From: Candidatus Brocadia sp.
Lineage (GTDB): Bacteria > Planctomycetota > Brocadiia > Brocadiales > Brocadiaceae
DNA length: 64,000 nucleotides
NCBI GenBank assembly: GCA_021646415.1
Contig: SOEU01000002.1
Location: forward strand, 124,001-188,000
Reading direction: 5' to 3'
Shown: piece after piece, positions 2,795 to 34,740 of the stretch
How positions within the stretch are numbered: position 1 is the stretch's first letter
Layout: each line of letters starts with the position of its first letter
Notes under the pieces: model-generated
Database searches by the model: none
Seen by the model: only the letters and a program-made list of their open reading frames with translations
Told to the model about the DNA's origin: nothing
Translations under genes and position numbers: made by a program

Positions 2795-4723
2795 CTACGA
2801 TGCTTCATTTACTTCGGGAAACAGATACGACATAAGTTCTCTGGCGATGGGGCCTGCAATATCTCCGCCATGTCCTGATGTATGTTCCACGAGAATGGCA
2901 AAACAGTATTGTGGGTTATCATAGGGTGCATAGCCGGCAAACCATGCATGATTGTCTTTGTGGCGTCCTGTTTCTGCGGTGCCGGTTTTTCCTGCGACCT
3001 TGTATACATCCAGCCCTTTATCTTTGGCAGTGCCGCGGGTAACTACATCCTGAAGAGCCGTGCGCAGGATGCTTATAATAGCAGGTGGCACATGAAGTTT
3101 CTGTTTATTCTCTGAATGAAATGACCGGACAGTTTCCCCCTGGCTATTGGTAATTTTTAATAATAGGTGGGGTTGTACCAGTGTGCCACCATTTGCCACA
3201 GCAGCGTATGCCCGGACCAGCTGAAGTGGCGTGGTGAGTAATGCCCCCTGTCCAATGGAAACGTTCATGAGAGATGCCGTAGTAACCGTTTTGGGCAAAT
3301 TCCCGCTTTTTTCATGGGGAAGATCGATGCCCGTCTTCTCACCGATACCGAATTTTTTTGCCCAGGCATACAAGGTATCTCCGCCAAGCATCTTTGCAGA
3401 CTCGAAGAAGAATACATTACATGAATAGGGGATAGCATCTTCCAGGGTAACTAATCCGTGACCATAGTCTGACCAGCATTTAAAAACGATATTTTTGTAC
3501 TTCGTGTAACCGTGGCACTCAAAAGGGGTTTGCATGGTTATGGAATTTGAACCCAGGGCAGCTGCAGCTGTAATAATCTTAAAGATAGAACCTGGTGGCA
3601 ATGCACCCTGTATAGCCCGGTTGAGAAAAGGTTTTGATGGGTGCCTGATAAGTTTGCTGAAATCTTTATCGATAGTATTGGGATTAAAGCGCGGATTGCT
3701 TGCCATGGCAAGTATTTCTCCTGTCCATGGGTTCATAACAATAATAGCGCCGAGATTTTTACCGAGTGATTTTTCTGCATGAGATTGTATTTGACAGTCG
3801 AGAGTTAGAAAAAGGTTATTTCCGGGAATGGACGGTCTTTCCAATACGGTTTTTTCAATTTGGGCATTTTTACAAATAATTTCCTCAAATCTTTTACCGC
3901 GCAGTCCGCGTAGTTCTTCTTCATATTGCGCCTCAACGCCTGCCCTTCCTATCGTATCGTTTTTCGCATAACCGTCATAGAGTAACGAAGAGGTATCGTC
4001 GCCGGCACTGCTGGAGGCCAGGATGAAATTATTCCAGTTGTTGCTATGTACCTTCCATTCGTCCTCGTTGAGTTTACTCATATAACCTAAAATGTGTGAG
4101 GCAAGTTCTTGTTCGGGATAGATTCTTTTTGGTTTGGGAGTAATACGTATACCCGGGAAATTGTCCTGGTTGATTTCTATTTGAATAACCTTTTCCCAGG
4201 CAACATTGGCAGCAAGGGGGTAAAAGTCTGTTTCCTCCTTGATGCGAATTGCCCTCCCATATTTTTGTTCCATATTTTGCTTCAGCTTCTCCACCCTTTC
4301 GATTACCTGGTTTGCATTTTCCAGCAATTTCATCGGCGGGATATTTAACAATTGAGATAGCTTTTTTAGCCAGACATCTTGATTTTCATGACATTCTTTG
4401 CAAGATTTATTTGCCTTTTTATGCACTTCCATCTCAGGAATTCGTGAGATGGCTTTGCTATTGTACGCGGCGGCGCAATAGAGCAAGTTCTTGTATTGGA
4501 CGGTTATGTCAAAGGTATGCTGGTCTACCGCCAGGACCTTCCCCTGTCTGTCAACAATAGAACCCCGCACAGAATCTAATGGATAAGAGGTAATGCGGCG
4601 GGTTTTGGAGATGCCTTTGTATTTATCACTCTCAATAATCTGGAGTTGAAAGAGCCGGACAACGATGCCGATAAAAAGCAGGACGAAAATAATGAGTATA
4701 ATCTTGAAACGAAAGGGATACAT
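2795..4723 (-). CDS. mrdA: penicillin-binding protein 2 (cell elongation transpeptidase)
   Basis: PBP2 crosslinks peptidoglycan during elongation in the Rod complex. The 642-residue protein has one N-terminal membrane segment (about 7-24), the PBP dimerisation region, and a transpeptidase domain with the three active-site motifs: S378-IFK381, S433-C-N435 and K578-TG580. It directly follows mreD (7 nt gap) in an mreB-mreC-mreD-mrdA order; rodA, often next, is absent here. A remarkable feature is the sequence CKECH at residues 108-112, a canonical CXXCH c-type heme attachment motif in the periplasmic N-terminal part, inside a roughly 40-residue Lys/Glu-rich segment. Presence of PBP2 is notable if this is a planctomycete, as most of that phylum lack it, while anammox members make peptidoglycan. 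Confidence 0.95.
   Translation of the reverse strand: MYPFRFKIILIIFVLLFIGIVVRLFQLQIIESDKYKGISKTRRITSYPLDSVRGSIVDRQGKVLAVDQHTFDITVQYKNLLYCAAAYNSKAISRIPEMEVHKKANKSCKECHENQDVWLKKLSQLLNIPPMKLLENANQVIERVEKLKQNMEQKYGRAIRIKEETDFYPLAANVAWEKVIQIEINQDNFPGIRITPKPKRIYPEQELASHILGYMSKLNEDEWKVHSNNWNNFILASSSAGDDTSSLLYDGYAKNDTIGRAGVEAQYEEELRGLRGKRFEEIICKNAQIEKTVLERPSIPGNNLFLTLDCQIQSHAEKSLGKNLGAIIVMNPWTGEILAMASNPRFNPNTIDKDFSKLIRHPSKPFLNRAIQGALPPGSIFKIITAAAALGSNSITMQTPFECHGYTKYKNIVFKCWSDYGHGLVTLEDAIPYSCNVFFFESAKMLGGDTLYAWAKKFGIGEKTGIDLPHEKSGNLPKTVTTASLMNVSIGQGALLTTPLQLVRAYAAVANGGTLVQPHLLLKITNSQGETVRSFHSENKQKLHVPPAIISILRTALQDVVTRGTAKDKGLDVYKVAGKTGTAETGRHKDNHAWFAGYAPYDNPQYCFAILVEHTSGHGGDIAGPIARELMSYLFPEVNEAS
4388..4402 (-). 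other. CXXCH heme-binding motif inside PBP2
   Basis: Codons 108-112 of mrdA read TGC AAA GAA TGT CAT (C-K-E-C-H), checked on the nucleotide sequence. The motif lies after the membrane anchor and so on the side where cytochrome c maturation works. CXXCH occurs by chance occasionally, so heme attachment is a hypothesis. Confidence 0.85.
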
Positions 4724-4730
4724 CGGTTAT

Positions 4731-5228
4731 TTACCCTTGATTGAAAAAAAGCTTCCGGGTCGGCTGAAATTTATTAAATATCCAAAACAGGACAGGGACA
4801 AGCATGGCTGTATAGAAAGAGCAGGAAAAGATTATCCAGAGTGTTGACGGAAGACGGAGGGAATGAAAAGAGACCGAGATGTGCAGTGCATAAAGTACGT
4901 TGTATAGGACGGAAAAGATAAATGTGATAAGAATCTGGGTAACCAGATGTCCACGAAACAGTATTTCTCTGAAGGACCAGATAAAAAAACCGAGAGCAAC
5001 AAAAAATATGGAATTTATTCCTAGGCTTCCTTCCGAAAATAAATCTTTTGAAAAGCCCGTGAACCAATTTGCAAGGGTATTTCTTTTTACATCTGTGAGA
5101 AAGGAATAAAATACTACGAAAGGAAAGTACAAATCGGGTACCGCCGACCCGAGATTAATCCAATGTATCATGGTTGACTGAAAGAGAGAGATACAAAAGA
5201 GGATACAAAAAAATGTAAGCCACCGCAT
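4731..5228 (-). CDS. mreD: rod shape-determining protein MreD
   Basis: MreD is the small polytopic membrane subunit of the MreBCD elongation complex. The 165-residue product is almost entirely hydrophobic, with about five predicted membrane segments, and has the MreD-like order of short helices. Primary sequence is poorly conserved in this family, so the call rests on size, topology and its place between mreC (36 nt upstream) and mrdA (7 nt downstream). Confidence 0.85.
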   Translation of the reverse strand: MRWLTFFCILFCISLFQSTMIHWINLGSAVPDLYFPFVVFYSFLTDVKRNTLANWFTGFSKDLFSEGSLGINSIFFVALGFFIWSFREILFRGHLVTQILITFIFSVLYNVLYALHISVSFHSLRLPSTLWIIFSCSFYTAMLVPVLFWIFNKFQPTRKLFFNQG

Positions 5229-5264: not shown

Positions 5265-6095
5265 CTAATCTATAATAACCAGTACACTCTCGATCTTTGA
5301 AATATTTACTTTTGGTAATGCCTTTACCGATTGAAAGAGGTCGCCATCTTTTGTTTTGTTTTCCACTACCGTAGCTATTGGCAGAGAAGATGGATAGAAT
5401 CCACCAATGTCGGAAGAGACGATATCATCACCGGGTTTTAACTTTGCCCAGCGCGGCACATATTTTAATTTACACAAAATCGTAGCATCCCCCTCTACAA
5501 TGACTTGTTCCCGTGTTTGAACAATTCTTCCGGGTATACGCGACGCGGGATCTGTAATAAGTTGAACAGCGCTATTTCCCCCGCTTACCGAGGTAATCTT
5601 TCCAATAAGTGCATTATTTGATACGACTATGTCATCGGGTTTTACACCGTGCTTCGAACCGGCATTGATGATGATACTTTTTCTTAAATTTGATGTATCA
5701 TATCCGATTATGTCCGCCGGTAACAATTTTGTTTTGGCATTTTTATTTTCTGCCTGGAATTTTGATAAGGTGTATAATTTACTTTGTAATTTGTATATGG
5801 TATCCTGTTGCTCTACAAGTTGATTTTTGAACTGGGAGACTTGTTCTTCCAGTTGTTTTTTTCTGTGTGTGTCTTGCCACGCAGAGATGACTCTGTCAAA
5901 AAAATTACTGGCTGAATTACTGCAGAAACAGGTTGCCCATTGTATTGGTCTGACAGGGGCAACACAGGTCATTTTAATACGATTTGAAAGTTTTGGCGGT
6001 AAAAACAGCAAGACCAGGGATACTGCTAAAAGGGTAATTATGGTTGCAAGGGGATTCTTTATGAGATCGCTGAAACTAGGAGTGGATGTCCTCAT
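5265..6095 (-). CDS. mreC: rod shape-determining protein MreC
   Basis: MreC is the periplasmic coiled-coil scaffold linking MreB to PBP2. I chose ATG at 6095 (276 residues, MRTSTPSFSD). A longer frame opens with TTG at 6155 but overlaps mreB by 80 nt and lacks a good ribosome site. The protein has one N-terminal membrane segment (about 22-38), a coiled coil, and the beta-rich MreC domain with the segment SKHGVKPDDIVVSNNALIGK. It overlaps the 3' end of mreB by 20 nt, a sign of translational coupling. Confidence 0.92.
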   Translation of the reverse strand: MRTSTPSFSDLIKNPLATIITLLAVSLVLLFLPPKLSNRIKMTCVAPVRPIQWATCFCSNSASNFFDRVISAWQDTHRKKQLEEQVSQFKNQLVEQQDTIYKLQSKLYTLSKFQAENKNAKTKLLPADIIGYDTSNLRKSIIINAGSKHGVKPDDIVVSNNALIGKITSVSGGNSAVQLITDPASRIPGRIVQTREQVIVEGDATILCKLKYVPRWAKLKPGDDIVSSDIGGFYPSSLPIATVVENKTKDGDLFQSVKALPKVNISKIESVLVIID

Positions 6096-7131
6096 CCTGT
6101 AGAACAGACTTAAATAAATCAAGGTTTTCGAGGAGATAACCCGTTCCCCTTGCAACGGCTGTCAGGGGGTCATTGCCCACTTGCACGGGTAGTCCCGTCT
6201 CAGCTGCCAAGAGTTTGTCCATACCCCTGATCAATGCGCCGCCACCCACTAATACCAGGCCATTGGTTATTAAATCAGATGCTAACTCCGGGGCTGTGTT
6301 TTCAAGGGTAGACTTCACGCCGCTTACAATTTTATCGATGGCCTCTTTTAATGCTTCTCTAATCTCTGCAGAGGTAATGACCGTTGCCCGGGGTAACCCT
6401 GCGATGGCATCGCGGCCTCTGACCTCCAGGGAGAGTTCGTCTTCCAAAGGATAGGCAGAGCCGATTTCAATCTTTATTTGTTCTGCTGTGCGGTGTCCAA
6501 TGTCCAGATTATAGGTTTTCCGTATATACTGGACGATGGATTCGTCAAATTCATCTCCTGCAATCCTGAGGCTTTGGTGCGTGAATATATCGCCAAGTGA
6601 GATGACCGCGACTTCTGTCGTTCCACCGCCGATGTCAACGATCATACTTGCTACAGGTTCACCTACCGGAAGGCCTACTCCAATTGCTGCCGCTTTCGGC
6701 TCAGAAACGAGGTAAACCTCCCGTGCACCGGCGCGCTCTGCTGAATTAACTACCGCCCGTTTCTCCACAGCTGTAATACCTGATGGAATTGCAATCAATA
6801 TCCTGGGACGAACACCCCACTTGCGTTTATGTACCTTTGTGATAAAATATTTGAGCATCGCCTCGGTGATATCAAAGTCCGCTATGACGCCATTTTTAAG
6901 CGGGCGTATAACAGAGATACTGCTTGGCGCCTTTTCCAGCATGGACTTTGCAACGTATCCTACCGCGTTCCCATTTAAAAGAACCTTATTTGTTCCTGGT
7001 TTCACCGCAACAACAGACGGTTCAGCCAGCACAATCCCTTGTCCGGGAATGCAAACAAGCGTGTTCGCCGTACCAAGGTCGATCCCCATGTCAGTTGAGA
7101 CGAAACCTAATATGAAATCTAATGGGTGCAT
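6076..7131 (-). CDS. mreB: rod shape-determining protein MreB, actin-like ATPase
   Basis: MreB forms membrane-bound filaments that steer cell-wall synthesis. The 351-residue protein has the actin-fold signatures MGIDLGTANTLV (phosphate 1), IVDIGGGTTEVAVIS (phosphate 2) and LVGGGALIRGMDKL (adenosine motif), at normal MreB length. It heads mreB-mreC-mreD-mrdA on the minus strand. The 177-nt gap before lnt probably carries the promoter. Most planctomycetes outside the anammox group lack this set, so it helps place the organism. Confidence 0.97.
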   Translation of the reverse strand: MHPLDFILGFVSTDMGIDLGTANTLVCIPGQGIVLAEPSVVAVKPGTNKVLLNGNAVGYVAKSMLEKAPSSISVIRPLKNGVIADFDITEAMLKYFITKVHKRKWGVRPRILIAIPSGITAVEKRAVVNSAERAGAREVYLVSEPKAAAIGVGLPVGEPVASMIVDIGGGTTEVAVISLGDIFTHQSLRIAGDEFDESIVQYIRKTYNLDIGHRTAEQIKIEIGSAYPLEDELSLEVRGRDAIAGLPRATVITSAEIREALKEAIDKIVSGVKSTLENTAPELASDLITNGLVLVGGGALIRGMDKLLAAETGLPVQVGNDPLTAVARGTGYLLENLDLFKSVLQDEDIHS

Positions 7132-19035: not shown

Positions 19036-19106
19036 CGTGCGTAACTTGATGAAAAATAAGATTTAGACGATATTTATTTTAATTGCTGACCATAGAAAGG
19101 TCTGGA

Positions 19107-19529
19107 ATGAAAAAGATAATATATATTCTCATAGGGCTTCTTGTAATCACCTTGAATAAACCTCTTTTAGCTAAAACGGATCTCCCCGGACTGGTTCGTG
19201 GTGGTCAGTATAGTAAAGGAATTTTGCACAGTATTATTCAGCCCGATTCTATCCAACAATCGTTGGATTCAATTTATAATGTAGGGCCATATCCCCTTTA
19301 TACCCCTGAATTGACTCCGGGTGAAGGCCGCGAGATTATACAAGGTTATTGCGACTTGTGCCACAGCGTTACGTATATTACCATGCAGCCCCCGCTTCCG
19401 GCGGCCACATGGGAAGACGAGGTTTATAAAATGATCAGCACGTACGGGGCTCTTATCCCGGAGGATGAGATAAAGAAGGTTATTGCCTACCTTCAGGCAC
19501 ATTATACCCCGGAAACCCGTAAACAATGA
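19107..19529 (+). CDS. monoheme c-type cytochrome, periplasmic
   Basis: The 140-residue protein starts at ATG 19107, with GAAAGG 7 nt upstream; the frame also opens from TTG 19083. It has a signal peptide (1-22, ending KPLLAK), a single heme motif C82-DLC-H86, and Met candidates for the distal ligand (M93, M109). The order heme motif, MQPPLPAATWEDEVYKM, IPEDEIKKVIAYL resembles the small cytochrome subunit of sulfite dehydrogenases (SorB-like). The molybdenum subunit is not adjacent, so the partner is unknown. It lies just downstream of the insertion sequence and may use a promoter near its right end. Confidence 0.88.
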   Translation: MKKIIYILIGLLVITLNKPLLAKTDLPGLVRGGQYSKGILHSIIQPDSIQQSLDSIYNVGPYPLYTPELTPGEGREIIQGYCDLCHSVTYITMQPPLPAATWEDEVYKMISTYGALIPEDEIKKVIAYLQAHYTPETRKQ

Positions 19530-32978: not shown

Positions 32979-33707
32979 CTACTTAATTTCCCAGACGGGG
33001 GTTTGAACAACGCCCTTTATTTTTTCAATGGCATTCTGTACAGCATTAATTACCGCCTTTGTAGATATGGTAGCACCTGTAATGGCCGTGATCTTTTCGT
33101 TATCTTTCACCTTCGATACGACCAGTTGATTGTAAGTTTTATGCTTAAATTGTTCCTGAAACCACGGGAGAGGCTTTTTTGCTTTTTTTAGTAATCCAAA
33201 TTTTTTTATTCTCTCCGGCTGTCCAAAAACTGGCAATTGCCAGGATTCTTCGCTATCCAAATCAATTGTTTTCAGTTCCTTACCAAAGATTACACTCCAT
33301 AACGTGGAGGTACTTTCGACATCAGTCATCTTTGTACCAAGTCCCGGGGTCTCATTTTGTGCAAGTATATTGATCCCGATAATCTTTTCAAGACCGGGGT
33401 CAGTTCCCACCATGACTTTAATCTTACTCGAGTACCCCTGGGCCTCTCCGCATGCTGCATAACCAATAAGTTGCCCTGCTTTGTTGAGCCCCTTATAGAC
33501 ACGGTCTTGATCTGCTATCGTCGATGGTGTTACTTCCACCGGAGAACCTTCCAAACCGGGAAGCACAATATACAGCGCCTCTGTACGAACTGCCACTTCC
33601 TTCCTTTTGATCGTGTCTTTTGTAAGTAAAAAAACCGACGACACCCCAAGCGAGGCCAAAAGAGAAACTATCGTCAGGGTAATCGTGTATTGAGCCTTCT
33701 TTTGCAT
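32979..33707 (-). CDS. rnfG: Rnf complex subunit G (FMN-binding)
   Basis: RnfG carries covalently bound FMN in the Rnf complex, which couples ferredoxin:NAD+ electron transfer to Na+ or H+ pumping. From ATG 33707 (242 residues; AAAAAGG 6-12 nt upstream) there is one N-terminal helix, the FMN_bind domain with NETPGLGTKM, and the flavin site TGATIST near the C-terminus, whose last Thr is the usual attachment residue. It follows rnfD with a 1-nt gap. Confidence 0.93.
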   Translation of the reverse strand: MQKKAQYTITLTIVSLLASLGVSSVFLLTKDTIKRKEVAVRTEALYIVLPGLEGSPVEVTPSTIADQDRVYKGLNKAGQLIGYAACGEAQGYSSKIKVMVGTDPGLEKIIGINILAQNETPGLGTKMTDVESTSTLWSVIFGKELKTIDLDSEESWQLPVFGQPERIKKFGLLKKAKKPLPWFQEQFKHKTYNQLVVSKVKDNEKITAITGATISTKAVINAVQNAIEKIKGVVQTPVWEIK

Positions 33708-33708
33708 A

Positions 33709-34740
33709 TTAAACCTTTTTCGCCCTGGTTCCATAGAGTCGAGGTTTTGTAAATCGATCAATCAGGGGTGTCGCTGTGTTCATGAGCAATATGGAATAGC
33801 ATACCCCTTCTGGATAACCAGAATAAAAACGGATCAGCACCGTTAGCACACCGGTACCAACTGCAAAAATGAAAAGCCCGCGTTTTGTTAAAGGAGACGT
33901 AACCATATCTGTAGCCATAAAGAATGCACCCAGAAATAACCCGCCTGCAAAGATATGATAAAATGGGTCATTGGCCCATGGCGTTACTATTCGTGAAGGT
34001 AAAATCAATACCATAACAAAGACCGTTGCTATATAACAAACAGGGACATACCACTTGACGCAACGCCTGTAAATCAGATAAGCGCCACCCAGCAATAAAG
34101 CAATTACGGAAGTTTCCCCAATACAACCAGGAACGTTTCCCATCAATAACTGAGTAAGGCGATATGTCTCTGCCCCTGCTTCTTTTGCCAGCGGTGTCGC
34201 CCTTGTGATAGCATCCACCAGCTTGCCTTCTGGATCGACCTTGGTAATACTATGAACGAGGTTGCCCATTCCGTGTTGCAAGAAGCGCCAATCTGAGTTG
34301 ATAACGGCAGGATAAGCCACCTGTAAAAATGCGCGTGCTGCCAGAGCCGGGTTCCAGATATTGTTTCCTAAACCACCGAAGGCATGTTTTGCAATGGCGA
34401 TTGCAAAGAAAGAACCTGCAACAGGGACATACCAGGGAACACCCGGGGGCAATGTGTATGCCAACAAAATCCCGGTAACAATCGCACTGCCATCCTTGAT
34501 GGTATTCACCATGGGTTGTTTCCGTAACAGCAAAATGATTGTTTCAGTAACAACAGCGGTTACAATACTCAAAAAGATAACGTAGAGGCAATAATATCCA
34601 AAGGTAAAAACACCGGCAATCCCTGCGGGAATCAAAGAAAGCACCACAGTCCACATAATCCCGGTAATACTCTCCGTATCGCGGACATGGGGGGACGCGC
34701 TAACAATTAAGGGAGTATTACTTTGAATCTGGTTTGGCAT
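33709..34740 (-). CDS. rnfD: Rnf complex subunit D (membrane, FMN-binding)
   Basis: RnfD is a polytopic membrane subunit with covalent FMN. The 343-residue protein starts with the SASPHVRDTESI segment typical of RnfD/NqrB, has eight to ten predicted helices, the GGLGNNIWNPALAARAFLQV loop, and MATDMVTSPLT, the usual flavinylation region. It lies between rnfC (59 nt gap) and rnfG. Confidence 0.95.
   Translation of the reverse strand: MPNQIQSNTPLIVSASPHVRDTESITGIMWTVVLSLIPAGIAGVFTFGYYCLYVIFLSIVTAVVTETIILLLRKQPMVNTIKDGSAIVTGILLAYTLPPGVPWYVPVAGSFFAIAIAKHAFGGLGNNIWNPALAARAFLQVAYPAVINSDWRFLQHGMGNLVHSITKVDPEGKLVDAITRATPLAKEAGAETYRLTQLLMGNVPGCIGETSVIALLLGGAYLIYRRCVKWYVPVCYIATVFVMVLILPSRIVTPWANDPFYHIFAGGLFLGAFFMATDMVTSPLTKRGLFIFAVGTGVLTVLIRFYSGYPEGVCYSILLMNTATPLIDRFTKPRLYGTRAKKV

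Follow-up and report, generated by a model that had tools for sequence, protein, structure and literature searches.

Penicillin-binding protein 2 (PBP2) is the anammox enzyme that builds the rod-shaped part of the cell wall. The peptidoglycan wall of anammox bacteria was shown only in 2015, when Pbp2 and Pbp3 were noted as homologues (PMC4432595). In the stretch of Candidatus Brocadia sp. DNA analysed here (64,000 nucleotides, hereafter the window), the PBP2 gene mrdA encodes a CXXCH sequence, the motif of c-type cytochromes, on the exported side of the protein. The question raised by this locus is whether PBP2 carries a heme at this motif or whether the two cysteines and the histidine serve another function, or none. 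A heme-bearing penicillin-binding protein was not found in the open-access literature searched.

The PBP2 gene and its insertion

The MrdA protein scored 527 bits against the curated pbp2_mrdA equivalog model, above the cut-off of 455, and its best Foldseek matches were PBP2 structures; the AlphaFold model had a mean pLDDT of 89.8. The catalytic SxxK, SxN and KTG motifs were intact, with S379/K382, S434/N436 and K579/G581 unchanged in 57 sequences of the order-wide set. The protein has the same membrane helix, head/anchor pedestal, catalytic motifs and transpeptidase domain as elongation PBP2/MrdA from E. coli (6G9P), Y. pestis (6TII) and H. pylori (5LP4/5LP5, with MreC), and the mre gene cluster is likewise common to both. 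We regard the window MrdA as the ordinary elongation PBP2 of the order, a predicted transpeptidase for which penicillin binding is also predicted, and thus as a known enzyme with a new feature and not as a new family. The features of the locus are collected in Table 1.

Table 1. Features of the mre-mrdA locus (positions in the window)
Feature	Positions	Strand	Description	Basis
mreB	6076..7131	-	First gene of the mreB-mreC-mreD-mrdA cluster	ORF and sequence
mreC	5265..6155	-	Start codon uncertain; without CXXCH	TIGR00219, PF04085
mreD	4731..5228	-		TIGR03426
mrdA (PBP2)	2795..4723	-	642 aa; sole PBP2 of the genome	NCBIfam pbp2_mrdA TIGR03423 (E 6e-158), Pfam PBP_dimer and Transpeptidase
N-terminal membrane helix	4634..4717	-	Residues 3-30; CXXCH on exported side	AlphaFold model
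Lineage-specific insertion	4373..4489	-	Residues about 79-117, head region; fast-evolving except C-x-x-C-H	
H101	4421..4423	-	Candidate distal ligand; in 44/58 relatives, absent in the sampled Scalindua-type family (f4)	
CXXCH	4388..4402	-	C108-K109-E110-C111-H112; predicted covalent heme c site, with H112 as predicted proximal ligand	
W118	4370..4372	-	Near-invariant; also in class members without the insertion, hence not tied to the motif	
C403, C416, H422, C435	3419..3517	-	Invariant in the order (57/57); probably a distinct Zn/disulfide site close to the active site	
Transpeptidase domain	2831..3751	-	Residues 325-631; S379xxK382, S434xN436, K579TG581	Pfam PF00905

The mrdA gene closes the window cluster. 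Families of the order other than that of the window had the same gene order, and at two loci a RodA-like gene directly followed mrdA. We looked for a cytochrome gene adjoining mrdA or rodA and found none. The genome encodes one PBP2, one FtsI-like paralogue and two RodA/FtsW genes. With a single PBP2, the motif therefore sits in the only elongation transpeptidase. CXXCH was absent from the FtsI, MreC and RodA of this genome. As a separate observation, MreC of Brocadia and Loosdrechtia (the window MreC and L126) has three cysteines directly after its membrane helix, a single Cys followed by CFC; these cysteines were absent in the two other families checked.

The original prediction had placed C-K-E-C-H in the exported N-terminal part of MrdA, within a segment that resembled an addition to PBP2, and each of these points was borne out. 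Translation of the 642-residue ORF gave the motif at exactly residues 108-112, where it is the sole CXXCH of the protein and follows the membrane helix in the AlphaFold model. The region of residues 71-126 is 56 residues long in the window PBP2 and about 56 across the order versus a mean of 26 in 62 diverse PBP2s from many phyla, and the difference therefore corresponds to an insertion of about 30 residues. In the predicted structure, the motif forms a short helix (residues 108-111) that is preceded by head strand 63-76 and followed by helix 113-126; model confidence in the insertion is moderate (pLDDT about 60-80). The insertion also gave a Pfam Ima1_N match that stayed below the family's cut-off (E 1e-3 with the whole protein and 5e-5 with the insertion by itself), which we ascribe to the Lys/Glu/Cys-rich composition of this segment.

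A second lengthening relative to PBP2s of other phyla was observed at residues about 135-165, which include the helix VEKLKQNMEQKYGRxIRIKEE; it was common to members of the class whether or not they have the CXXCH insertion. Elsewhere in the window, the product of positions 19083-19529 is small and exported, contains a single CXXCH (CDLCH) and weakly matches Cytochrome_CBB3. Besides this protein and PBP2, the sole ORF of at least 100 aa with a CXXCH in the window lies antisense to the ORF at 32979-33761.

Conservation of the motif within and beyond the order

The original prediction had left room for a chance motif, and a CXXCH without function, or one left over from a former cytochrome domain, is one account of the sequence. 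Composition-matched shuffles of the window PBP2 contained a CXXCH in 0.3% of cases, which leaves chance some room; by itself this frequency is not strong evidence against it, and conservation is decisive. We compared 58 intact PBP2 genes, the window gene included, from five families that include Brocadia, Kuenenia, Loosdrechtia, Scalindua and others, whose proteins are 40-90% identical to that of the window. Both cysteines were present in all 58 and H112 in 57, and the full C-x-x-C-H was found in 57/58 (window counted). On the PBP2 gene tree, Fitch reconstruction gave no change at C108 or C111 and one at H112, with 24 changes at X109, 8 at X110 and a mean of 12.95 per column over the segment 79-118. 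The codons were TGC in 29 and TGT in 29 genes at C108, TGC in 30 and TGT in 28 at C111, and CAT in 39 and CAC in 18 at H112; with the Cys codons split almost evenly and the His codons mixed, the DNA has therefore drifted synonymously while the residues stayed.

One species lacks the histidine, which is the other point in favor of chance. In this single-contig genome (G021), PBP2 (L035) reads CRECR; it is the sole intact relative without the full motif, it keeps both cysteines, and its codon is CGT where most relatives have CAT, one base apart. The motif was also present in PBP2 of Scalindua arabica and, as CGECH, in a draft genome (G008, L052) where a frameshift, either real or an assembly error, interrupts mrdA soon after it. 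Absence of the motif from close relatives, which would have spoken against the original prediction, was thus not observed: 57 of 58 intact genes, the window gene included, and one frameshifted gene keep C-x-x-C-H. Exactly the C, C and H were retained across the tree, whereas the insertion outside the motif showed 33% mean pairwise identity and the codons drifted, and the motif was found in a second order as well (see below). This pattern refutes the absence of function, and the chance reading left open by the original prediction is now extremely improbable.

Four of the five families have members with the hydrazine synthase alpha domain; the fifth (f3), in which it was not detected, is represented by one incomplete genome; the members of the order are therefore anammox bacteria. 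A record titled Candidatus Kuenenia stuttgartiensis contained a PBP2 (L147) with 29% identity and no motif, unlike the PBP2 of Kuenenia hertensis, which is 64% identical to the window protein. This record is probably a mislabelled or contaminated draft genome.

Beyond the order, CXXCH was found in none of 92 other PBP2s, taken from 20 Planctomycetota genomes and from a wide multi-phylum scan that contributed 72; in the same wide scan, all 8 Brocadiales PBP2s had it. Among 392 sampled genomes of the phylum, no high-scoring match was found outside the class, with most of the best weak matches inspected. Relative to the known elongation PBP2s, the window protein differs in its insertion, about 30 residues long, and in the CXXCH within it. 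In another family of the same class (f9), most members were without the insertion, and CXXCH was absent from all those seen. A genome of another order of the class (G065) encodes a PBP2 (L083) with CXXCH twice in its insertion, first as CAQCH and then as CLECH; the latter aligns in register with the window motif. Hydrazine synthase alpha domain matches numbered 16 in this genome and 11 in genome G064, far more than in anammox genomes.

Heme attachment compared with zinc binding and a thiol switch

The System II ligase CcsBA needs both thiols and the histidine, and a short CXXCH sequence is necessary and sufficient, in peptides down to 9 residues (PMC8112865). Strong constraint within the insertion falls on C, C and H only, which matches the CcsBA recognition rule, and it is therefore best read as a sign of heme c attachment. 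System II is complete in anammox bacteria, which have two CcsA-CcsB complexes (PMC4222556). CcsB/ResB and CcsA genes were present in the window genome (contigs C19 and C17), and ResB was found in 60/62 genomes of the order and in G065, but in only 2/9 in the family without the insertion. As a correlation, this match between ResB and the insertion is weak, and it may reflect one ancestral gain and not many independent events. From the sequence evidence, we conclude that heme c attached covalently at the PBP2 CXXCH is the best explanation and probably the correct one. The CXXCR of G021 would then mean that the histidine, and by the CcsBA rule the heme, is not indispensable in that species.

The insertion of L083 gave weak, sub-threshold matches to Cytochrom_C, Cytochrome_C7 and Paired_CXXCH_1. 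Motif duplication is typical of multiheme cytochromes, and two CXXCH motifs together with these weak matches support the heme reading. When the window protein and the insertion were searched against curated cytochrome c families, none scored above its cut-off; the sub-threshold matches were strongest for the L083 insertion. System II c-type cytochromes (Cytochrome_C7/Paired_CXXCH) resemble the window protein in that their CXXCH is exported and lies in a short helix, in many cases with an upstream His. They differ in that the host here is a housekeeping transpeptidase and not an electron-transfer protein, with no cytochrome fold or family above cut-off.

Alternatively, C108, C111 and H112 could bind a metal ion such as Zn2+ that braces the inserted loop, with H101, a carboxylate, water or a partner protein as the fourth ligand. 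Cys and His in a CXXC-H arrangement can serve as zinc ligands, and a metal built into a class B PBP has precedents: Zn sites are reported for C. difficile PBPs, SpoVD being listed with them (PMC9334274), and one is found in A. baumannii PBP2 (PMC9974482). The A. baumannii site, however, belongs to the transpeptidase domain, and the equivalent residues in the window protein are C403, C416, H422 and C435, a separate set that probably forms a Zn or disulfide site and lies far in sequence from the CXXCH of the head insertion. At the head, four conserved protein ligands were not found, only the three insertion-specific conserved residues, as H101 is present in 44/58. The lack of a conserved insertion-specific fourth ligand supports heme over a metal site. 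Cys83 was rejected as an extra ligand (Cys in only 20/58), and W118, E163 and E164 were rejected as partners of the motif, since class members that lack the insertion likewise have W118 and an acidic residue at the E163 position. Moreover, the His after each CXXC of the doubled motif in L083 is cytochrome-like, the constraint is of the CcsBA type and not of the Zn type, and an exported CXXCH in an organism with CcsBA would compete for heme. We therefore consider zinc binding at the head unlikely.

The cysteines could instead form a reversible disulfide, a thiol switch in which H112 tunes reactivity and which controls the opening of the head. Two papers (PMC9974482, PMC5626683) cite B. subtilis SpoVD, likewise a class B PBP proposed to respond to the extracytoplasmic redox state, as being under thiol-disulfide control by the extracytoplasmic reductase StoA. 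Additionally, MreC no longer binds when an engineered disulfide locks the head and anchor of PBP2 (PMC5626683). The SpoVD disulfide is located in the transpeptidase domain, in contrast to the CXXCH in the head of the window PBP2. A plain disulfide also does not need a near-invariant His right after the second Cys, and the order-wide CXXCH and its doubling in the other order fit heme better; a thiol switch thus appears quite improbable.

Possible role of the predicted heme and the second Cys/His set

If heme c is attached to PBP2, C108 and C111 would be kept reduced after export, CcsBA would attach the heme to both cysteines, and H112 would coordinate the iron as its proximal ligand. For most families, H101 is a possible distal ligand; the Scalindua-containing family is without it. 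The heme would lie on the head subdomain, after strand 63-76 and before helix 113-126, in the partner-binding part of PBP2. In H. pylori PBP2, MreC is accommodated by an opening of the head surface (PMC5626683). The most likely effect of the heme would be on head opening or on docking onto MreC/RodA, through either a fixed brace or a redox- or NO-responsive brace (latch) on the head surface.

The location is the weak point of the heme reading: PBP2 should act at the cytoplasmic membrane, whereas CcsBA is assigned to the anammoxosome membrane in the published model (PMC4222556). With PBP2 at the cytoplasmic membrane, one CcsA-CcsB complex would need to work there. The anammox compartment plan leaves the site of cytochrome c maturation undecided; if the heme reading is true, heme c on PBP2 would require heme ligation at the cytoplasmic membrane, and the role of the second CcsA-CcsB complex could be tested directly through it. 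In these organisms, which are central to nitrogen removal, wall synthesis would also be linked to the supply of heme.

The original prediction had further suggested that a heme on PBP2 could tie wall synthesis to the redox state. The heme itself gains support from the CXXCH, which is conserved, specific to the lineage and located in an extracytoplasmic insertion of the only PBP2 of organisms with System II, but the redox tie stays speculation. In one version, the heme would respond to NO/nitrite or to the redox state on the outer side of the cytoplasmic membrane and thereby control whether the head is open or closed to MreC/RodA, coupling wall growth to the catabolic state; we consider this version possible but rather doubtful. 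The sequence and context evidence is equally compatible with a structural role and with sensing of redox state or gas.

Near the active site, the second Cys/His set resembled the Zn site of A. baumannii PBP2. The spacing of C416, H422 and C435 (6 and 13) is that of D365, H371 and C384 in the A. baumannii site (PMC9974482). C403, the first candidate ligand, is a Cys and is spaced 13 rather than 15 residues away, and a disulfide is therefore possible. These residues likely form a Zn or disulfide site near the PBP2 active site.
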